From: Muribaculum sp. An289 | Lineage (GTDB): Bacteria > Bacteroidota > Bacteroidia > Bacteroidales > UBA932 | DNA length: 64,000 bases | Reading direction: 5' to 3' | Assembly: GCF_002159555.1 (NCBI RefSeq) | Contig: NZ_NFIV01000009.1 | Location: forward strand, 1-64,000 | In this document: positions 359 to 59,241 of the stretch, in pieces | Layout: each line of letters starts with the position of its first letter | Numbering within the stretch: position 1 is the stretch's first letter | Made by a program: the position numbers and the translations under genes | Notes under the pieces: generated by a model | The model's input: only the letters and a program-made list of their open reading frames with translations | Databases searched by the model: none | Told to the model about the DNA's origin: nothing

Positions 359-482
359 TTATCTTTAGCTAAGATATAAATTTTATATTACATTGGCAAT
401 CAATTCGTTATAAAGTTTTTATTCTTTTTACGACAGTCCCTATTCTATCCTTCCCCATTTTTCAAACAAGAGAAAAATATAG

Positions 483-12362: not shown

Positions 12363-15113
12363 TCAGATGTTTAATGCCTCCTTCAGGTAGGGTCCGGTTA
12401 CGGACTCGGGATTCCCGGCTATCTCTTCCGGGGTCCCTTCGGCCACGATCCGCCCTCCCTTTTCTCCTCCTTCCGGTCCTAAGTCGAATATGTAATCCAC
12501 GGACTTGAGGATGTCGAGGTTGTGTTCGATTATGATGACGGTATTGCCTTGGTCTACAAGTTTCTGCAATACGTTCAGAAGTATTTTTATATCATCGAAA
12601 TGCAGGCCGGTGGTAGGTTCGTCTAAGATGTACAGAGTGTTCCCGGTCGCCTTTCGGGAAAATTCGGCCGCGAGTTTGATTCTCTGGCTTTCTCCTCCGC
12701 TGAGCGTTACGGACGACTGCCCGAGGCGTATGTAACCGAGCCCGACATCGCACAGGGCCTGCAATTTATAAGCGATTGAAGGGATGTTCCTGAAAAAGCC
12801 GTATGCTTCGCTGACAGGCATTTCAAGCACATCGCTGATGTTTTTCCCCTTGTATTTTACGGCGAGGGTGTCCGGATTGTATCTTTTCCCTCCGCATTGC
12901 GGGCATGTTACGTTCACCGACGGGAGGAAATTCATTTCGATTACCTTGATTCCCGCCCCTTTGCATTCCTCGCACCGGCCTCCGCTTACATTGAATGAAA
13001 ACCGTCCGGATTTGAAGCCGCGTATCTTGGCATCCGGAGTCTCTTCGAAGAGTTTGCGTATGTCGGTGAATACGTCCGTATACGTCGCCGGGTTGCTCCG
13101 CGCGGTTTTCCCTATCGGACTTTGGTCTATCTCGACGAGTTTGTCGATGTTTTCCACTCCCGTTATTTCATCGTATGGCTGTGCTGTGAGGCTGGAGCGG
13201 TAAAATATGTTGCTGAGTACCGGCATCAGCGTTTCGGTTATGAGGGTCGATTTTCCGCTGCCGCTCACGCCGCTTATCCCGACAAAACAGCCTAAAGGTA
13301 TCGATATGTCTACGTTTTTGAGGTTGTTCCCTCTTGCGCCCCTGAGGTTCAGGAAAGTACCGTTGCCTTTCCTTCTTGCCGGAGGAATGTCTATGTTTTT
13401 GAGGCCGTTGAGGTAGTCAAGGGTCGGTGTGGATATACCTTTGATTCCCGAAACGGGGCCGTTGTAAAGGACTTCCCCTCCGAGTTCTCCGGCTCCGGGG
13501 CCCATGTCGATGAGCCAGTCGGCGTTTTCCATCATTTCCCTGTCGTGCTCCACGACCATGACCGAGTTGCCCTCGTCGCGCAGTTTTTTCAGCGAATCAA
13601 TCAGTTTGCGGTTGTCCCTGTAATGGAGCCCTATGCTCGGTTCGTCCAATATATACAGTACGTTCACTAATTTCGAGCCTATCTGGGTTGCGAGCCTGAT
13701 TCTCTGGCTTTCACCTCCGGACAACGACGATGCCGGGCGCGAGAGTGTCAGGTATTCGAGGCCCACGTCCATGAGGAAACCTACCCTGTCGTTCAGTTCC
13801 TTCAGTATGTCACGTGCTATGGTGGACTGCCTGGCGGAGAGTTTTTCAGGGAGTGATCGGAGCCATTTCTGCAATTCGGAAATCTCCATTTGGGAGACCT
13901 CGTAGATGTTTTTCCCGTCTATCCTGAACAGCAGGCTCTCTTCATTGAGCCTCTTTCCGTGGCATACCGGGCATTCGACGGTTTCCGTAACATCGTCCAT
14001 CACCCCTTTGAATGTCACCATTTCGGAATTGGCCCCGCTTCCTATCCTGAACAGTTCATCGGACCCGTATATCAGCAGCGACAGGGCATCCTGTGGTATC
14101 TCGTCAATCGGGTCGAACAGGGAAAAGCCGTATTTCTGGGCGATGGCCCGGACGACATCGAATTTTTTGTTTTCCCGGGATTTTCCGAGCGGGATTATCC
14201 CTCCGTCGGCAATTGATTTGCTTTTATCCGGAATAATGCTGTCTATCTGTATGTTCCGTATCCTTCCGAGGCCTTTGCAGTTGGGGCAGTAGCCTCTCGG
14301 GGAGTTGAATGAAAATGTGTGCGGAGCCGGTTCGGGAAGCGAAATCCCGCTGTCCGGACAAACGAGGTGTTTGGAAAAATATTGCATTTTCCCGTCCTCC
14401 GGATTCATTACGGCCAGTTCTCCCTTTCCTTGGGCAAGGGCGGTGGTGACCGACTCCCTTATGCGCTTTTCGTCTTCGTCCTTGGGCTTCAGTTTGTCTA
14501 TGACGAGTTCTATGAAATGCGGTTTGTAGCGGTCCAACGGCTGGACTTCTTCCAGCAGGACTATCTCGCCGTCTATCCGGGCCTCGTTGAAGCCTTTCTT
14601 GCGAAGTGACGAGATGAGTTCACGGTAATGGCCTTTCCTTCCTTTGACCAATGGGGAGAGCAGGACACATTTCTTTCCCTTGTAGCGTTCGATTATGAGC
14701 GAGACAATCTGCGAGTCGGAATATTTCACCATCTTTTTCCCTGTCACAGGAGAATATGCTTCCGAAGCCTTTGCGTAAAGAAGCCTCAGGAAATCATAGA
14801 TTTCCGTTGTAGTCCCGACGGTGGAGCGCGGGTTGTTGCCGGTCGTCTTCTGCTCGATTGCGATTATGGGGCTGAGGCCCTCGATTTCTTCCACGTCAGG
14901 TTTTTCGAGGATGCCCATGAACTGTTTGGCATAGACCGAGAGTGTGTCCATGTACCTTCTCTGGCCTTCTGCAAAAATGGTGTCGAATGCGAGGGAGGAT
15001 TTTCCGCTCCCGCTGAGCCCTGTGACTACGACAAGGCGGTCCCTCGGTATTTCAAGGGAAACGTTTTTAAGGTTATGGGCCTTTGCCCCGGTTATTTTTA
15101 TCGAATTGTCCAA
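12363..15113 (-). CDS. uvrA: Excinuclease ABC subunit A
   Basis: 916 residues, slightly shorter than the roughly 940 of E. coli. It is the damage-recognition ATPase of nucleotide excision repair, acting with UvrB and UvrC. Two ABC cassettes are present: Walker [10 protein letters not shown] at 32-40 and GVSGSGKST in the second half, with signatures [13 protein letters not shown] and [13 protein letters not shown]. The second zinc module is intact (CEECKGAG ... [10 protein letters not shown]). The first reads CPDSG ... CPNCKGLG, so one cysteine of the usual CPxC is replaced, which appears to be a lineage variant. The gene starts 13 bp after the MBL gene stop. Confidence 0.97.
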
Positions 15114-15126
15114 TCTCTGTTCTGTT

Positions 15127-15771
15127 TTAGTATGGCTGGAGGAACGGGTTCTTTAGCCTTTCTTCACCTATCGTCGTAGGATATCCGTGTCCCGGAATCA
15201 CCTCTATGTCATCGCCTAAAGGGATGATTTTCGTCATGATGCTCTTCATCAGGGCGTCATAGTCTCCCGAAGGGTGGTCTGTCCGTCCGATGCTTCCTGC
15301 AAAAAGCGTGTCCCCCGAAATCAGAAAATTGTTTTCTTTGCTGAAAAAGCAAACGCCGCCGCGGGTGTGGCCCGGTGTCGCTATGACTTCAAGCTGCGAA
15401 TGTCCGAATGTTATCCTGTCCCCGTCATGTATGTCGAGCGTTTTTTCCGGAAGTTCCGGTGTGGCATAGCCCATCATTTCGCAGAATCTCGGGACGTATG
15501 CCCTCTGTTCCTTGTCTTCCGGGGCCATATATGTGTCCGCTTTCCATTTGTCCGTGACGAAACCGAGTCCCAGAACATGGTCGAAGTGCATGTGTGTCAG
15601 CAGTATCTTGACCGGTTTCAACGAATTGTCCGTTATGAACTGCTCCAGCCTTTTCTTTTCCGTATCGGTATAGCATCCAGGGTCGATTATCACCGCCTCT
15701 TTCGTTTCGTCCCACAGCACCATGGTGCATTCGCGCAGGTCGTTGAAGTAAAATCTTTTTATTTCAATCAT
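15127..15771 (-). CDS. MBL-fold metallo-hydrolase (glyoxalase II-like)
   Basis: 214 residues from the ATG at 15771. A longer frame to 16371 runs through the repeat island and is not coding. Metal-binding motifs are complete: THMHFDH 59-65, H135 in TPGHT, D154 in SGDTLF and H195 in PGHGYPTT. This is the glyoxalase II/YcbL subgroup that hydrolyses thioesters such as S-lactoylglutathione in other bacteria; the substrate here is unknown. First gene of an operon with uvrA and a nucleoside kinase. The unusual repeat island lies directly upstream. Confidence 0.9.
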
Positions 15772-15968
15772 AAGTCGCCGGTAAAATTTTATTCTGCAAG
15801 TTATATAAAATTGCTTAAAAATGCGCTCCGATGCGGATATTTTTGTGATTCGGCACCGTTCCGAAAGCCGCTTGTCAGTAAAGCCGCTAGTAAAGCCACT
15901 TGTCGCGGTTTTGCCTCCACGGGCCACCGTATTTCCCACCCCATAGCCATTCCTCTTTTTCGAGGGTG

Positions 15969-16387
15969 TTTGATAATCAATAAGTTGCAAAAATGCAGGC
16001 TGGCTTTGGGTACTTTCCAAGGTACCCAAGCGCAGGGGCGGTTTTGGTAAAACATTGGATATCAATAAGTTGTGAAAGTAGAGGCTGGCTGTGAGGTTGA
16101 AAAATATGCCGGCAAAATATACCGGTAAAATATACCGACAAAATCCGATTCCTACCCGCCTCCTCGGTTTTTCTTCCTTCATGCTTTGTCCCGCAGTTCT
16201 TTCACCGGCGCTGATTCTTTGGCCTCCCGAAAAAGTTTGGAGCGAGTTATGTTTTGCTAAATTATTAATAATCAATGGTTTACCAAAATTCAGCTCGCTT
16301 TTGAGGGGTATACGGACATGATTAAAAGCGAGTTGTATTTTCTTAAATAATTGGCAATCAACTATTTGCAAATATTTTACTCGCTCC
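15969..16387. repeat. Hairpin-module block, copy 1 (homologous to 52724-53057)
   Basis: Four cores of the form TTGATAATCA-(5-7 nt)-TTnTAAAA lie at about 15970, 16055, 16264 and 16350. Each pair is about 85 bp apart. Complementary arms flank them. CTTTGGGTAC (16004-16013) pairs with GTACCCAAG (16022-16030). GAGCGAG (16240-16246), CTCGCTTTT (16294-16302), AAAAGCGAG (16324-16332) and CTCGCTC (16380-16386) can pair in alternative ways. Compared with copy 2 there is an insertion of roughly 110 bp around 16115-16230. Confidence 0.8.
16101..16139. repeat. 13-bp tandem repeat, three units
   Basis: AAAATATGCCGGC, AAAATATACCGGT and AAAATATACCGAC follow each other without a gap. Island 2 has a single unit at the matching place, so this is a local expansion. 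Confidence 0.8.
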
Positions 16388-16410
16388 AGACTTTTGGAAA
16401 ACTGTCATGG

Positions 16411-16456: not shown

Positions 16457-16579
16457 GTTCATTTGCTATGCTCTCGGCTTCTTTTTTTTTGCTTTCGGCA
16501 ATTGTGACGGATTTCAATGGACGGATTTAACTGTAGACACGATATGATTAACAGGCAATGGCATGGTCCAGCCTGATGA

Positions 16580-16705
16580 GGGAAAGTGAACCAAATTACC
16601 GGTCATTCGGTGCACTTTCCCCTCGAAAATATTGATTTTACCGCCATTTTCGCCGTTTTTCCCGGGAAAGTGAACCATTTTGCCGCGAATTGGTGGCACT
16701 TTCCC
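16580..16705. repeat. Two GGGAAAGTG...CACTTTCCC hairpins
   Basis: GGGAAAGTG at 16580-16588 pairs with CACTTTCCC at 16613-16621. A second copy pairs 16664-16672 with 16697-16705. Inside each the sequence GAACC...GGTG extends the symmetry. The same element sits at 53343-53380, again directly before the promoter module. Confidence 0.8.
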
Positions 16706-16795
16706 CTAATACGAGGCTCTCGGCTTCTGCGTATAGTTGCCGCTATCGCGCCAGAAATACTGTTGCGCCTCGGCATAGCAATTTGAATAAATTCA

Positions 16796-16827
16796 TTTGC
16801 TCTGCTCTCTGCTTCTGCGTATATTTG
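16796..16827 (+). promoter_or_regulatory. Promoter of the deoxynucleoside kinase gene (TTTG-N20-TATATTTG)
   Basis: TTTG (16796-16799) and TATATTTG (16820-16827) are separated by exactly 20 nt and match the Bacteroidetes -33/-7 consensus. The leader to the ATG at 16848 is about 20 nt. The spacer ends GCTTCTGCG, as in the ahcY promoter at 53693-53724. A related but weaker copy (TATAGTTG) lies about 90 bp upstream. Confidence 0.75.
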
Positions 16828-16847
16828 CCCAATAAAAACAGTTTGTC

Positions 16848-17462
16848 ATGCATATAGCCGTAGCAGGAAACATAGGAAGCGGGAAGACTACGCTTACCCG
16901 CATGCTTTCACAGCATTATGGTTGGAAAGCGAAGTTCGAGAGTGTCGAATACAATCCGTATCTGGCGGATTTTTATGAAGATATGGAAAGGTGGTCCTTC
17001 AACCTCCAGATATATTTTCTCAATAAGCGTTTCAAGGATGTCGTAGAGATTCTTTCGAGCAACGAATGTGTCATCCAGGACAGGACGATATACGAGGATG
17101 CGAAGATTTTCGCCCCGAATCTGCATGCGATGGGGCTGATGTCCACGAGGGATTTTGAAAATTATACCGACCTGTTCAATCTTATGATGTCTCTCGTGCG
17201 CAGGCCTGATCTTCTGATATATCTGAAATCCTCCATCCCGAATCTCGTTGCCAACATACAGAAGCGGGGAAGGGAATACGAAAACAGCATCCGTATCGAT
17301 TATCTTAAAGGCTTGAACGACCGTTACGAAGAGTGGATTTCCGGTTATGACAAGGATAAACTGCTTATTGTCGATACGGACAATTTGAAGTTCGAGTCTT
17401 CGCCGAAGGATTTTGAAAATATCATCGACCGGATCGACGCGCGTTTGAACGGGCTATTCTGA
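16848..17462 (+). CDS. Deoxynucleoside kinase
   Basis: 204 residues. P-loop GNIGSGKTT at 7-15, the dNK signature DRT at 78-80 (VIQDRTIYEDAKIFA) and an arginine-rich lid near NIQKRGREYE place it in the dNK/dGK-dCK family that phosphorylates deoxynucleosides for salvage. Specificity among dA, dG and dC cannot be told by eye. Expression is probably driven by the TATATTTG promoter at the end of repeat island 1. The last 41 bp overlap the 3' end of the convergent membrane-protein gene. Confidence 0.9.
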   Translation: MHIAVAGNIGSGKTTLTRMLSQHYGWKAKFESVEYNPYLADFYEDMERWSFNLQIYFLNKRFKDVVEILSSNECVIQDRTIYEDAKIFAPNLHAMGLMSTRDFENYTDLFNLMMSLVRRPDLLIYLKSSIPNLVANIQKRGREYENSIRIDYLKGLNDRYEEWISGYDKDKLLIVDTDNLKFESSPKDFENIIDRIDARLNGLF

Positions 17463-51465: not shown

Positions 51466-51562
51466 GGTTCTGAATTTTAAATGTTCATTATTTTGCGGCA
51501 AAGTTATATAATTTTCCGTGAAAATCTCCGTATTTTTGCCCGAGGTCATTTTATGTAGCGGT

Positions 51563-52675
51563 ATGAAGGCTTTTCCTGCATGTATTAAAATTTTTCTGAA
51601 AACCGTATTATGGGCCGCTGTGGTTTCGGTCGTGCTCGTGCTTGTTTTCCTGGCGGTCGGGGCCATGACGGATTTCCGTCCCGGAGACAGGGAGCCGGTG
51701 TGTGAGTATGCCGGAGCGGGGCTTTGCGGTTCCTCCGGGGGTTATTCCGGCGTTGCGGTTCCGGAATCCGGGAAAATCATTCCGGATACGCTGAAAATAG
51801 TCACATGGAACATCGGTTACGGCGGCCTGGGTGACGATATGGATTTTTTCTATGATGGAGGGACGAGGATGAGATGCAGCGAGGAACGTACCCGTGAAAA
51901 CCTTGCCGCCATTGTCTGTGAACTGAAGTCGATGGATGCGGACATATATCTGTTGCAGGAAGTGGACGAGGCTTCCCGCAGGTCGTACATGATAAATGAA
52001 TTGGAGCTGTTGCGCGAGGCTTTTCCGGACTACTGTCTGTATTTCGCGTACAATTACAAAAGTTTTTTTGTCCCCATACCTCTTTCCAATCCGTTGGGCA
52101 AGGTGTCGAGCGGTGTCGCGATACTGAGCAGATACCGTCCAGAGAAGGTGGAACGGCTTTCCTATCCTTCACGTTTTCCCTTTCCTGTCAGCATGTTCAA
52201 TCTGAAACGTTGCCTGCTGGCCGCCGGGTATCGCCTTCCTGACGGAAGCAGGCTCGTGATAGGGAATACGCACAATACGGCCTACGATACGGGAGGCATG
52301 CGTTTGCAGGAAACGGATTTCCTTGCCGGCTGGGCCGATTCGCTGTGCAGGGAAGGGGCCGTAGTGCTTGTGGGAGGGGACTGGAACCAGTATCCGCCGG
52401 GTTATGTCCCGTCTGAAGAAGAGACATCCAATCCGCATTTTGCCGTAGCCCCGTTGGATTTGTCCGGACTGGGCTCCTGCGGCCGTGTGGTTTATGATAC
52501 GGATGAAAAGACGTTGAGGTATCTGGACAGGCCTTTCAGCGAAGGCCCGGTGCAGAGCGTTACGGATTATTTCTTCATATCCGGCGGTCTTCATGCGGGG
52601 CAGGCGGAAGTCTGCGGCAATTCCGGTTTCAGGCATGGCGACCACAGGCCCGTTGAAGTCAATATCGTTTTGTGA
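51563..52675 (+). CDS. Endonuclease/exonuclease/phosphatase-family protein, membrane-anchored
   Basis: 370 residues from the ATG at 51563. One N-terminal hydrophobic segment (about 8-35, LKTVLWAAVVSVVLVLVFLAV) anchors or exports it. EEP motifs: VTWNIGYGG, YLLQEVD, SSGVAILSR, GGDWNQYP and GDHRPVEV at the C-terminus, so the metal-dependent phosphoesterase site appears complete. Substrate unknown (nucleic acid, phosphoinositide-like or sphingomyelin-like). A -7-like TATTTTTG lies at 51531-51538. Repeat island 2 follows directly. Confidence 0.88.
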   Translation: MKAFPACIKIFLKTVLWAAVVSVVLVLVFLAVGAMTDFRPGDREPVCEYAGAGLCGSSGGYSGVAVPESGKIIPDTLKIVTWNIGYGGLGDDMDFFYDGGTRMRCSEERTRENLAAIVCELKSMDADIYLLQEVDEASRRSYMINELELLREAFPDYCLYFAYNYKSFFVPIPLSNPLGKVSSGVAILSRYRPEKVERLSYPSRFPFPVSMFNLKRCLLAAGYRLPDGSRLVIGNTHNTAYDTGGMRLQETDFLAGWADSLCREGAVVLVGGDWNQYPPGYVPSEEETSNPHFAVAPLDLSGLGSCGRVVYDTDEKTLRYLDRPFSEGPVQSVTDYFFISGGLHAGQAEVCGNSGFRHGDHRPVEVNIVL

Positions 52676-52723
52676 GCGGTCCTTTTTTGTGCGGTCCATT
52701 TTGTGAGCGGCCCCGTTTTTCAT

Positions 52724-53057
52724 CCCATGTCCATCTTACTAATTTTAAACGTATTGATAATCAGTGATTTGTAAAAAAAATATGGGCTGGCTTTGGGTGC
52801 TTTCTGAGGTACCCAAAAGCAGCGACTGTTTTAGTAAAATGTTGGTTATCAATATGTTGTAAAAACGATAGTTGGCTGTGGGGTTGAAAAATATACCGAC
52901 AAAGTTTGGAGCGAGTCGAATTTTGTTAAATTATTTAAAATCAGCGACTTATAAAAATTTAACTCGCTTTTGAGGGGTGTGCGGACATGGTCGAAAGCGA
53001 GTTGTATTTTCTTAAATAATTGATAATTAGGCATTTGTGAATATTTTACTCGCTTCG
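52724..53057. repeat. Hairpin-module block, copy 2 (homologous to 15969-16387)
   Basis: Cores at about 52753, 52842, 52931 and 53019. CCCAT (52724-52728) pairs with ATGGG (52782-52786). TTTGGGTGC (52792-52800) pairs with GTACCCAAA (52809-52817), where a G:T pair replaces the A:T seen in copy 1. GAGCGAG (52909-52915), CTCGCTTTT (52963-52971), AAAGCGAG (52994-53001) and CTCGCTT (53049-53055) give the same four-arm arrangement as copy 1. Confidence 0.8.
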
Positions 53058-53143
53058 AAGTCTGACGGAGGGAAAGTGAACCGTTTGTCGCGAATTTTCA
53101 TCCGCCATTTGGGGAAAGTTTTCCATGTAATTTGGAACAGTCG

Positions 53144-53280
53144 GTGCATGATAATTTTGAATACATTGATAATCAAGTGATTAGTAAAACGAATGCACAT
53201 TTCGAAAGTTTTAAACGGCCGAAATGTGTACTTGAATTTTTAGTGTATTGATATTCAGTTTGTTATAAAATTGTCTGCAC
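53144..53280. repeat. Third hairpin-module pair with different arms
   Basis: Cores TTGATAATCA (53165) and TTGATATTCA (53248). Arms GTGCAT (53144-53149)/ATGCAC (53193-53198), CACATTTCG (53196-53204)/CGAAATGTG (53220-53228) and GTGTA (53226-53230)/TGCAC (53276-53280, one wobble). The arm sequences differ from the other pairs, but the layout is the same. Confidence 0.75.
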
Positions 53281-53342
53281 CCGGACTTCCGTTATGTTCA
53301 CTTATTTGTATCCGGAGAGTGCATTCCCAGTCCGTTCTTCCC

Positions 53343-53380
53343 GGAAAGTGGACCATTGCCGCGAATAAGTGACACTTTCC
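53343..53380. repeat. GGAAAGTG...CACTTTCC hairpin
   Basis: GGAAAGTG (53343-53350) and CACTTTCC (53373-53380) with internal GCCGCGAAT. It matches the second hairpin of island 1 (16664-16705) through its loop and into the following TAATACGAG. A lone GGGAAAGTGAACC near 53070 may be a half copy. Confidence 0.75.
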
Positions 53381-53391
53381 CTTAATACGAG

Positions 53392-53575
53392 GCTCTCGGC
53401 TTCTGCGATATTTGCCTGACGGCAGAAATACTGTTGCGCCTCGGCGTAACAAATAAATTTGTTATGCTCTCGGCTTCTGCGATATTTGCCTGACGGCAGA
53501 AATACTGTTGCGCCTCGGCGTAACAAATAAATTTGTTATGCTCTCGGCTTCTGCGATATTCGGCTACGCCGGAAA
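53392..53575. repeat. 74-bp tandem repeat of the promoter module
   Basis: GCTCTCGGCTTCTGCG begins at 53392, 53466 and 53540, exactly 74 bp apart. The first two units are nearly identical over their full length; the third diverges after its first 20 bp. Each unit carries TTTG-N20-GATATTTG (one base off the -7 consensus) and TAACAAAT-aa-ATTTGTTA just before it. Confidence 0.9.
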
Positions 53576-56795: not shown

Positions 56796-57374
56796 ATGAA
56801 AAAAGATATAATTTTGGCAGGCGTAGGCGGTCAGGGTATCCTGTCGATTGCCACAATCATAGGCGAGGCCGCACTTCACGAAGGTCTGAAAATCAAGCAG
56901 GCCGAAGTCCACGGTATGAGCCAGAGGGGAGGAGATGTCCAGTCGAACCTGAGGATTTCCTCTGAACCTATTTTGTCCGACCTTATTCCGCTTAAAGGTG
57001 CCGATATAATCATTTCCCTGGAGCCGATGGAGGCATTGAGGTACATGCCGTATCTTGCTTCGGACGGGTGGATTGTCACCAACTCGGTTCCGTTTGTCAA
57101 TATTCCGAATTATCCGGAACTTGACAACGTCATGGCCGAGCTTTCCAAGGTGAAGAACCTCGTCATGCTCGATGTCGATACCATAGCAAAGGACTGCGGG
57201 AACTCCCGTGCGGCAAACATGGTGCTCCTCGGAGCGGCTTCTCCGTTCCTCGGCATGGAAGCCAAGAATATCGAAGACGGCATAGAGCGCATCTTCGGCC
57301 GTAAGGGCGCAGACATCGTAGAACTGAACATCAAGGCTCTGCGTGCCGGAAGGGCGGTCGCGGAACAGAAATAA
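56796..57374 (+). CDS. iorB: Indolepyruvate ferredoxin oxidoreductase, beta subunit
   Basis: 192 residues, the gamma/domain III type of 2-oxoacid oxidoreductases: GVGGQGILSIATIIGEAALH at the start and EVHGMSQRGGDVQSNLRIS. It completes the active enzyme with IorA. A strong terminator lies just after the stop. Confidence 0.95.
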   Translation: MKKDIILAGVGGQGILSIATIIGEAALHEGLKIKQAEVHGMSQRGGDVQSNLRISSEPILSDLIPLKGADIIISLEPMEALRYMPYLASDGWIVTNSVPFVNIPNYPELDNVMAELSKVKNLVMLDVDTIAKDCGNSRAANMVLLGAASPFLGMEAKNIEDGIERIFGRKGADIVELNIKALRAGRAVAEQK

Positions 57375-57395
57375 ACAGGAAACATTGTCCAAGGT

Positions 57396-57428
57396 ACATG
57401 GGAGGGATTATTCCCTCCTATGTTTTTT
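57396..57428 (+). terminator. Terminator after iorB
   Basis: ACATGGGAGGGA (57396-57407) pairs with TCCCTCCTATGT (57412-57423) over 12 bp (one G:T), loop of four, then TTTTT. It ends 8 bp before the next ATG, so the following gene must have its promoter within or after it, or rely on read-through. Confidence 0.85.
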
Positions 57429-57435
57429 GACTTTT

Positions 57436-59079
57436 ATGATAGCGAGATTGTGCATTCTGATATTGTTGCTGTCGGTTTCATGTTCGTCCGGAAACGGCCG
57501 GAAAGAAGCCGAGAGGGCGGAATATGCCCTGCAACATACGCAGGAACTGTACGACCGGAACGCTCTTCCGGATAATGATTCATTGATAATGGTAGCCGTG
57601 GATTGGTATGAAAAGAACGGTCCTGAGCGGGAACTGGCTTTGTCTTACTATTATTGCGGATATATCCATTATGTGTGCGGAATGGGCGATAGGGCGGCCG
57701 AATTTTACTCGAAGGCCCTGGTCCATGCCGAAAAATGCGGCGACGGGGCGGCGCTTTCAATGATATGCAATGCCATCGGCTATATGTACAAGCATCAGAA
57801 CGACAATGAAGAAGCACTTGCGATGTTTTCCAGGTCGGCGGATTTGCTGGACAGCATGGGAAGATACAGGTCTTCATTCGTGCCGCGATACAACGAGATA
57901 GAGATGCTTAATCTTCTGGAACGTTATGATGAAGCACTGGAACAGGTGAACAAGGCCTCGGAAATTGCAGAAGCGGTCGGCGATACTTCCGCTATACTGG
58001 AACTTGCGGGCATGAAGGCCGCGATTATAGTCAATGACACGGCAAAACAGGCATCTGTCCATGAAGTGATTGAGGATTTGTCAGGCATATATGCCGAATA
58101 CAATGCAGGAAAGATACCGGAATCACACTATGGCACAGTAGGAATACTCTCGTTCCTCGATGGGGATTCCCGGTCTGCGAGAAGATACATGACGGAAGGC
58201 GCGGCATATTCTCCGGACTATCTTAAAGTGGTGTTGGAGCATTATCTTTCGTTGTTGGAAGAGAGGGCGGGCAACCCCTACGAAGCCTTGGCGCATGAGC
58301 GGAAGGCCTCGGAACTGAAGGATACGTTATACGAGGAAAACAAGACATCCCTTATCCAGGCAGCGGAGAGAAAATACGAGCATGAGTATTTGCAGAAGTC
58401 ATACGACCTGCTCCAGTCGAAACATCTCTATCAGGTTTCGGCCCTCGTAATGATTATATTGCTGTCGGCCGGCATATTTATGGCGATATTCATATTTTAC
58501 CGTCATAAGCTGAAGCAACAGAAAAAACATACGGAAGAAGTAATGGCGTATATCGACACCATCCGCTCCGAATATGACGAGGTCAATGAAAAATATGAAT
58601 CTCTCCGGGAAAAATTTTCAAAACAGAGCGGTGTGGGAGAAAAAATGTCGAAGCTTTTGGGTAAACGCATGGATTCTTTAAGGGGATTGCTCGAAATAGC
58701 TTCGCGTTACGAAAGCCGTCCTGCGCTTTTTTATGCAAAATTCAAAGAGTCTGTCAAGGTAAACTCGCAATATAACCGCCAATGGGAGGACGAAATCATT
58801 TCCATCACCAATCTTTCTTACGGAAATGTCATCGAGGAACTCAGGTCGGCGCATCCTGATCTGACCGTCCACGAACTGTGCTACTGCTGTTTCGTATGTC
58901 TGGGCTTTTCTCCGCAATCCATAAGGGTGCTTTATGACCATACGAACCTTAACAGTATCTATACCGTGAGGTCGAAAATACGCTCCAAACTCGGGCTTGT
59001 AAACAGCAACAAAAGTCTGGACAGTTATTTCGAAGACCTTCTTTCGTCCAAAGGCGGCTCTTTTGTCGATATGATGTAA
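57436..59079 (+). CDS. Membrane TPR protein with cytoplasmic helix-turn-helix (one-component regulator)
   Basis: 547 residues from the ATG at 57436. Signal/lipobox-like start MIARLCILILLLSVSC (C16), TPR helices at about 25-320 (ALSYYYCGYIHYVCGMGDRAAEFYSKAL, AIGYMYKHQNDNEEALAMFSRSA), a membrane helix at about 332-354, a coiled coil at about 360-400 and a C-terminal helix-turn-helix at about 474-525 (LTVHELCYCCFVCLGFSPQS ... YTVRSKIRSKLGL). This is the Bacteroidetes type with periplasmic TPR sensor and cytoplasmic DNA-binding end. The fimbrillin-like genes downstream are its likely targets, by position only. The lipobox and the second membrane helix make its anchoring unusual. Confidence 0.88.
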   Translation: MIARLCILILLLSVSCSSGNGRKEAERAEYALQHTQELYDRNALPDNDSLIMVAVDWYEKNGPERELALSYYYCGYIHYVCGMGDRAAEFYSKALVHAEKCGDGAALSMICNAIGYMYKHQNDNEEALAMFSRSADLLDSMGRYRSSFVPRYNEIEMLNLLERYDEALEQVNKASEIAEAVGDTSAILELAGMKAAIIVNDTAKQASVHEVIEDLSGIYAEYNAGKIPESHYGTVGILSFLDGDSRSARRYMTEGAAYSPDYLKVVLEHYLSLLEERAGNPYEALAHERKASELKDTLYEENKTSLIQAAERKYEHEYLQKSYDLLQSKHLYQVSALVMIILLSAGIFMAIFIFYRHKLKQQKKHTEEVMAYIDTIRSEYDEVNEKYESLREKFSKQSGVGEKMSKLLGKRMDSLRGLLEIASRYESRPALFYAKFKESVKVNSQYNRQWEDEIISITNLSYGNVIEELRSAHPDLTVHELCYCCFVCLGFSPQSIRVLYDHTNLNSIYTVRSKIRSKLGLVNSNKSLDSYFEDLLSSKGGSFVDMM

Positions 59080-59082
59080 TTT

Positions 59083-59178
59083 ATTGATAATCACATTGTT
59101 GGTCGTATTGCCAAAAGGCTATGTCCCGGGTATATGATTATTTTTTCATAATAAACTGACAATCAGTTTGTTGTAAAT
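59083..59178. repeat. Hairpin-module core pair near the regulator gene end
   Basis: TTGATAATCA at about 59084 is flanked by ATATGA (59069-59074, inside the gene end) and TCGTAT (59103-59108), which pair with one wobble. A second core, CTGACAATCAGTTTGTTGTAAA at about 59156, contains AAACTGA-caa-TCAGTTT. It is the same family as in the two repeat islands. Confidence 0.55.
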
Positions 59179-59191
59179 TTAGCTATATGAT

Positions 59192-59233: not shown

Positions 59234-59241
59234 TATCTTTG
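59234..59241 (+). promoter_or_regulatory. -7-like box TATCTTTG before the fimbrillin-like gene
   Basis: TATCTTTG fits TAnnTTTG; the ATG at 59296 is 54 nt further. A TTTG at 59216-59219 is only 14 nt upstream, so the -33 match is weak. Confidence 0.4.

Follow-up and report, generated by a model that had tools for sequence, protein, structure and literature searches.

REPINs consist of an inverted pair that folds into one long hairpin, and RAYT genes, which encode REP-associated Y1/HUH transposases, have cognate repeat populations. How REP sequences disseminate is called poorly understood in the available part of PMC8266576. In Bacteroidota, REPs are reported for Flavobacterium and Thermoflavifilum in the available tables of PMC12306157, and the available sections of PMC3733652 describe CGTC repeats in Bacteroidetes without transposase genes. 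The accessible text of PMC6006769 places 'atypical secondary structures' beside the Bacteroidetes TnpA-REP genes of TnpA-REP (RAYT) subclass 2.6.

The DNA analysed here (the window) is a stretch of 64,000 nucleotides from Muribaculum sp. An289, in which the original prediction had reported a repeat family with a conserved core at 13 positions. We found the core at all 13 positions and the family is real: when the whole source genome was searched with TTGATAATCANTNNGTTGTAAAA, allowing ≤3 mismatches, there were 71 matches as compared to 0 for the reversed pattern. The core is a dyad, YAANNNNYTGATWATCARNNNNTTR, made of two divergent overlapping copies of the IHF consensus WATCARNNNNTTR that share the W, and a weight matrix trained on the window cores also scores on the opposite strand at the same centres. 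The IHF consensus has an A/G variant at its sixth place. For E. coli, it is printed as WATCAAnnnnTTR and TAAnnnnTTGATW in the available text of PMC10380432. Twelve of the 13 cores are the halves of six paired elements of ~125-175 bp each, which are listed here with the remaining core:

15932..16103, + strand: type A element, 172 bp, ends TTTCCCACCCCATAGCC .. GGCTGTGAGGTTGAAAA; IHF-consensus sites at 15975-15987 and 16060-16072
16232..16395, + strand: type B element, ends AAAGTTTGGAGCGAGT .. ACTCGCTCCAGACTTT; IHF-consensus sites at 16270-16282 and 16356-16368
52716..52890, + strand: type A element, 175 bp; IHF-consensus sites at 52759-52771 and 52847-52859; single-stranded DNA (ssDNA) fold z = -3.7
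52901..53062, + strand: type B element; IHF-consensus sites at 52939-52951 (+) and 53013-53025 (-); ssDNA fold z = -3.2
53138..53290, + strand: type C element, ends CGGTGCA .. TGCACCCG, inner hairpin TGCACATTTCG/CGAAATGTGTA; IHF-consensus site at 53171-53183; fold z = -4.0
59065..59190, + strand: type D element, found once, a weaker form of the shared layout (dyad centres 72 bp apart, fold z = -1.0); IHF-consensus sites at 59077-59089 (-) and 59161-59173 (+)
380..420, + strand: lone dyad (core at 392) with an exact IHF consensus at 398-410 and no partner, excluded from the element count

The window elements are intergenic. Those at 15932-16103 and 16232-16395 lie upstream of uvrA (12363-15113, minus strand) and of the gene at 16848, those within 52716-53290 lie between the gene at 51518-52675 and ahcY (53754), and the type D element lies between the gene at 57343-59079 and the gene at 59239, apart from its left edge, which falls within the last codons of the former. 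Two minus-strand ORFs that overlap the two element clusters (15127-16371 and 52169-52723) were taken as spurious. The lone dyad at 392 lies in the terminal part of an insertion sequence (IS) that has a second copy at source-genome contig C32:1-330; decayed ends of a known IS, which had been named as an explanation that would speak against the original prediction, fit only this copy, the others being paired elements of types that, except for B and D, are tied to RAYTs. Other repeats are found close by: a 74-nt repeat (GCTCTCGGCTTCTGCG..) is present at 53392-53565 as two exact tandem copies and a partial third, with a relative near 16715 (~16715-16830), and dispersed repeats with GGGAAAGTGAACC / GGTGCACTTTCCC-like ends adjoin elements at 16575-16705 and 53060-53380. 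A plasmid or phage origin was dropped, as window 52724-53290 has no blastn-level match among plasmids and phages in a comparison from which very near records may be absent.

Each element is arranged as terminal arm, dyad, inner hairpin, dyad and terminal arm, where the arms are terminal inverted repeats of ~15-18 bp. The original prediction had placed the core in the loop between inverted arms whose sequence varies while pairing is kept. The arms exist and are complementary; however, they extend further than proposed (into terminal inverted repeats plus an inner hairpin), the core is a dyad rather than a loop, and the variation is a wholesale swap between types, as both the terminal arms and the inner hairpin are similar inside a type and unlike between types. 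The G:T pair that it noted (GGGTGC/GTACCC) is present, in the inner hairpin of 52716-52890. We assigned types by arm motifs, with A as the remainder, because iterated B and C profiles drifted into A. In 212,628 bp of source-genome DNA we found 85 elements (A 55, 50 of them full-length; B 13; C 10; E 5; D 1; F 1), and since this sample was taken around matches these counts are lower bounds. Genome BLAST gives 13 near-full C places, 14 near-full B places and, for type A, 68 rows in which both strands are counted and part of the candidates was scored. The type A arm has 90 matches genome-wide as compared to 0 for the control, 64 of which form 32 facing pairs 152-155 bp apart, with 26 single. The 50 full-length type A copies have a mean identity of 67%. 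Two dyads were detected in 82 of the 85 elements, with centres 84-88 bp apart in A, 85-86 in B, 82-83 in C, 109-110 in E and F and 72 in D; these spacings (82-88, 109-110 and 72) do not support a general rule of helical phasing between the two dyads. A symmetric-PWM scan undercounted the cores, probably owing to variable dyad arms. Weak E-profile matches (E 2e-5 to 5e-3) beside A elements at C35:111378, C16:399, C31:99166, C1:295966 and C12:172970 are perhaps one further element type. We also noticed a single, partnerless sequence that resembles the core and has a spacer of 3 nt, in the small gap that precedes a gene resembling fabF by eye (L003:1501-1522); it is probably unrelated to the elements and was not counted.

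The repeats are short, non-coding and probably mobile elements. When we joined the flanks of the 83 elements with enough flank and compared these junctions with the 212,628-bp sample, there were 28 junction-spanning matches, and none of the 25 inspected was accepted as an empty site; the interpretable ones were other copies or other repeats. Transposition is therefore something we infer. In type A, the sequence bordering the element recurs beside other copies, right up to the boundary, on both sides in 24 of 55 elements, on one side in 23 and on neither in 8, and some A copies have therefore spread within larger repeat mosaics.

To measure how strongly the dyads resemble IHF sites, we compared the density of the IHF consensus inside elements (155 sites in 14,662 bp, 10.57/kb) with that outside (42 in 197,966 bp, 0.212/kb) and found an approximately 50-fold difference. 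By type, exact sites numbered 104 in A (shuffled expectation 1.7), 30 in B (0.43), 14 in C (0.33), 2 in D (0), 3 in F (0) and 2 in E (0.13). As many copies had been located through the core itself, we limited a recount to the 28 elements that lack a genome-wide core-pattern match; these contain 48 exact IHF sites as compared to 0.72 in shuffled sequence, with at least one site in 25 of 28, and the enrichment is therefore not due to how the copies were found. The base that follows TGATWATCA, which is N in the search pattern, is a purine in 115 of 116 cases and in 18 of 18 within the 28-element subset. In type A, the 17 specified columns of the dyads carry 1.47 and 1.44 bits as compared to 0.49 and 0.56 bits for the 8 spacer columns. 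Exact copies of the full double site are few, with 11 inside elements and 1 outside, and the usual state is one good half-site and one degenerate half-site. What the types have in common is a pair of dyads, each of which fits the IHF consensus at least in part in either direction. Across the 28 E elements of three genomes, the fit to IHF is weaker (13 exact sites as compared to 0.92 shuffled) and the best-conserved parts are the arms and the inner hairpin. The source genome encodes one canonical HU/IHF protein (C1:45531), whose top model is IHF-beta at 58 bits, under the cut-off of 115, and two longer, weaker family matches.

The source genome has six RAYT-like genes and one fragment, and the ORFs that we read have NHVH and YVLRNP motifs. 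A dyad (≤2 mismatches) is present within 500 bp of four of the six, where 0 of 40 shuffles gave one in each of those flanks, and four types (A, C, E and F) adjoin four different RAYT genes:

RAYT C31: broken, in two pieces with one TGA; flanked on either side by A elements
RAYT C35a: E elements on both sides
RAYT C32a: C element on the 3' side
RAYT C8: single F element on the 5' side
RAYT C35b: a different 62-bp GC-rich element on both sides, no dyad
short C32 RAYT-like gene: abuts the IS that carries the lone dyad

No RAYT was found beside types B (13 copies) and D. Three source-genome RAYTs match NCBIfam REP_Tyr_transpos below the cut-off of that model, with E values of 8e-7 to 6e-10. The structure predicted for the RAYT at locus L180 (pLDDT 85) has one match at E ≤ 0.001, which is 4er8, a RAYT bound to its REP hairpin (E 1.4e-4, 134 columns). 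The elements seem to depend on this adjacent family of 'domesticated' transposase genes. At L042/L105 (C35, ~63.6-64.7 kb), a RAYT lies between two copies of a GC-rich inverted pair of 62 bp (ACCACCG..CGGTGGT) that lack dyads, and the CAGA..TTCT centre of this pair recalls a RAYT-flanking element of another genus (L081).

To see how far the arrangement extends, we searched 58 other genomes for the core pattern, and found the highest counts in G043 (42, control 9) and G049 (25, control 7); the two among them that belong to the same genus have 2 and 7 matches. Among 55 extracted RAYT loci, seven have a dyad within 500 bp (≤2 mismatches), two of which (G004 and G005) are without the element layout. 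On a tree of 50 longer RAYTs, the seven dyad-positives need 4 changes, a number as low in 0 of 500 label shuffles, and in a clade of five (support 98/93) four are dyad-positive and the fifth, G002_C29, has an adjoining E element by profile. In a single scan of genome contigs, 80 RAYT loci were kept and 44 (L180-L222, L238) were tested for a dyad within 600 bp; one was present at 5 of 10 RAYTs that are ≥35% identical to the query as compared to 1 of 34 below 35%, where 0.02 and 0.04 flanks were expected. By eye, L180, L181 and L182 (Candidatus Coprenecus) and L191 (uncultured Bacteroidales), whose RAYTs share 55-61% identity with C32a, carry a C-like element 3' of the RAYT. L185, L186 and L218 repeat this layout with different arms, L183 and L184 show part of it and L194 has none. 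Among the three same-genus genomes, type A DNA is found in the source genome only, and the other two are without a RAYT grouping with C31; type E is in all three, each with an E-type RAYT; type C is in the source genome (13 near-full matches) and as one copy in G002, which keeps a RAYT fragment 48% identical to C32a; and type B is in the source genome only. Type presence thus tracks the matching RAYT for A, C and E. Type E has expanded in the relatives (48 BLAST rows in G001, loci L282-L298, and 22 in G002, with both strands and partial rows counted), and in G001 and G002 the RAYT-adjacent E copies differ from the dispersed ones at the dyad.

The original prediction read stem covariation as selection on structure and proposed a structured RNA or a protein-bound cruciform. 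A structured RNA or leader family under selection for base pairing is something for which the folds of single copies speak: one copy each of A, B, C and E folds as ssDNA better than shuffled DNA (z = -3.7, -3.2, -4.0 and -9.1). The single D and F copies fold hardly better than shuffled DNA (-1.0 and -0.8); the values for two elements of other genomes are -6.2 (the C-like one at L191) and -3.9 (the one at L186). Palindromes, however, fold on either strand by construction. When we aligned 50 of the 55 type A copies, omitting five truncated or end-divergent ones, local-hairpin pairings occurred in 79.1% of cells as compared to 79.9% in shuffled alignments (493 of 500 shuffles as high) and fold-back pairings in 79.1% as compared to 82.3% (500 of 500 as high), so that type A copies pair no better than shuffled ones. 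Both structures beat slid versions (39-50%), a gain that shows only that the consensus is palindromic. RNAalifold gave -8.37 kcal/mol for type A with a covariation term of -0.35 kcal/mol, and the strongest mutual information between type A columns lies off the stems. In Rfam, no family reached the gathering score in the window, and at a relaxed threshold the matches were far below gathering (best E 0.053). Without stem covariation in type A, the symmetry is thus kept as sequence, as in a protein site, rather than by compensatory change. We therefore retain the protein-bound DNA dyad from the original proposal and set aside structural covariation, and a structured RNA is very improbable.

The near-constant length of the elements and their ~15-18 bp terminal inverted repeats would also suit ordinary MITEs that share the terminal inverted repeats of a DDE insertion sequence. 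However, none of the listed A-arm matches (64 paired at 152-155 bp and 26 single) suggests a full-length IS, going by arm positions alone, and four types flank RAYT genes instead; we consider this origin improbable, if slightly less so than a structured RNA. A closer rival keeps the same RAYT-linked elements and assigns binding of the dyad to the RAYT, for instance through its C-terminal part, so that the resemblance to IHF sites would be coincidental. Consistent with binding by the RAYT, a single RAYT clade holds most of the dyad-positives that have the layout, helices predominate in the predicted C-terminal half of the protein (L180 model) and IHF proper is said to be restricted to some phyla. 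In contrast, RAYTs of similar length without dyads exist (C35b in the source genome and G001_C84), and the degenerate letters W, R and R are placed as in the IHF consensus. We regard binding by the RAYT itself as rather unlikely, though well ahead of a DDE origin.

Taken together, these data favour, with some confidence, the reading that the repeats are non-autonomous, REPIN-like elements of Bacteroidales RAYTs, in which the arms are the signals of the cognate RAYT and the dyads are IHF/HU-type bending sites. The arms and inner hairpin behave as type-specific signals and the dyads as a module common to types with different RAYTs; a dyad shared in this way is likelier to be bound by a host factor than to give the RAYT its specificity. 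One REPIN-like population per RAYT, carrying IHF/HU-type bending sites, is the most economical account. We propose that the cognate RAYT would recognise the arms and hairpin of its own type in single-stranded form, for instance on the lagging strand, and would spread the element, and that a protein of the IHF/HU family would bind and bend both dyads. Such bending may bring the ends and the central hairpin together, or may aid extrusion of the hairpin. More tentatively, there may be an IHF/HU-dependent branch of RAYTs, in which several RAYTs have private arms and share two double dyads at a set spacing, and the nucleoprotein bend together with the hairpin is the RAYT substrate; we see this as possible but doubtful.

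Compared to known systems, the elements resemble REPINs and their RAYTs (Bertels and Rainey 2011, PMC3116915, as far as its available text goes) in that an inverted pair makes one long hairpin and RAYTs have cognate repeats. Going by the fold of one copy per type, the inverted pair is able to form one hairpin in A, B, C and E and not in D and F; the repeats are dispersed, multi-copy and palindromic, and an adjacent RAYT with HUH and Y---NP motifs is present except for types B and D. Unlike REPINs, they carry IHF-type dyads, and a common dyad recurs in several cognate types of a single genome. The GT[AG]G of the REPIN/RAYT 5' foot is absent as a rule: on the + and - strands, the first 35 nt contain it in 7 and 3 of the 55 A elements, 0 and 1 of the 13 B elements, 1 and 7 of the 10 C elements, 0 and 2 of the 5 E elements and on neither strand of the F element. 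In type A, GT[AG]G lies near the opposite, 3' end (46 and 40 of 55). Like E. coli RIB and BIME-1 (PMC2817692, available part), they are intergenic, RAYT-linked palindromic pairs, and whereas IHF interacts at the centre of RIB/BIME-1, here the consensus WATCARNNNNTTR lies, by sequence, inside the element as two symmetric double sites ~85 bp apart, with other arms and no 5' GT[AG]G REP units. In TIRtrons and TIRYTs, a RAYT-like gene lies between long inverted repeats, which can form dispersed families as well, although no IHF-type dyad is described for them in the accessible part of PMC3733652. The Neisseria Correia/NEMIS and Coxiella QMITE1 MITEs are likewise short inverted-repeat elements with an IHF site; the available portions of PMC2229807 and PMC5896051 mention neither a RAYT partner nor paired dyads for them. 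A literature search, which subscription papers and supplements lay outside, returned no description of paired IHF-type dyads for Bacteroidales RAYT elements, no paper joining Coprenecus with repetitive extragenic palindromes, and none joining Bacteroides host factor, IHF and CTnDOT.

With subclass 2.6, in the accessible text of PMC6006769, the elements share Bacteroidetes HUH/Y1 TnpA-REP genes flanked by non-canonical structures that have copies elsewhere in the genome, whereas the anatomy, the IHF site and the shared dyad are not part of that text's description. Of its protein motifs (NH[LIV]H, WQ and YIH[QN]NP), NHVH fits, and the ORFs that we read have WS and YVLRNP in place of the other two. 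As both the 5' GT[AG]G and the full set of 2.6 motifs are lacking, we file the elements as a variant and as a member of neither class. They address the open question of how RAYTs spread REP-type repeats, as one genome holds several RAYT/element pairs that have clearly different arms and share a host-factor-like module. The elements are long and well defined and their arms distinct, so cognate specificity and dependence on a host factor should be separable in simple assays. The repeat class itself is known, and in a poorly described corner of it our analysis gives an anatomy to the 'atypical secondary structures' that the available text of PMC6006769 places beside Bacteroidetes TnpA-REP genes.
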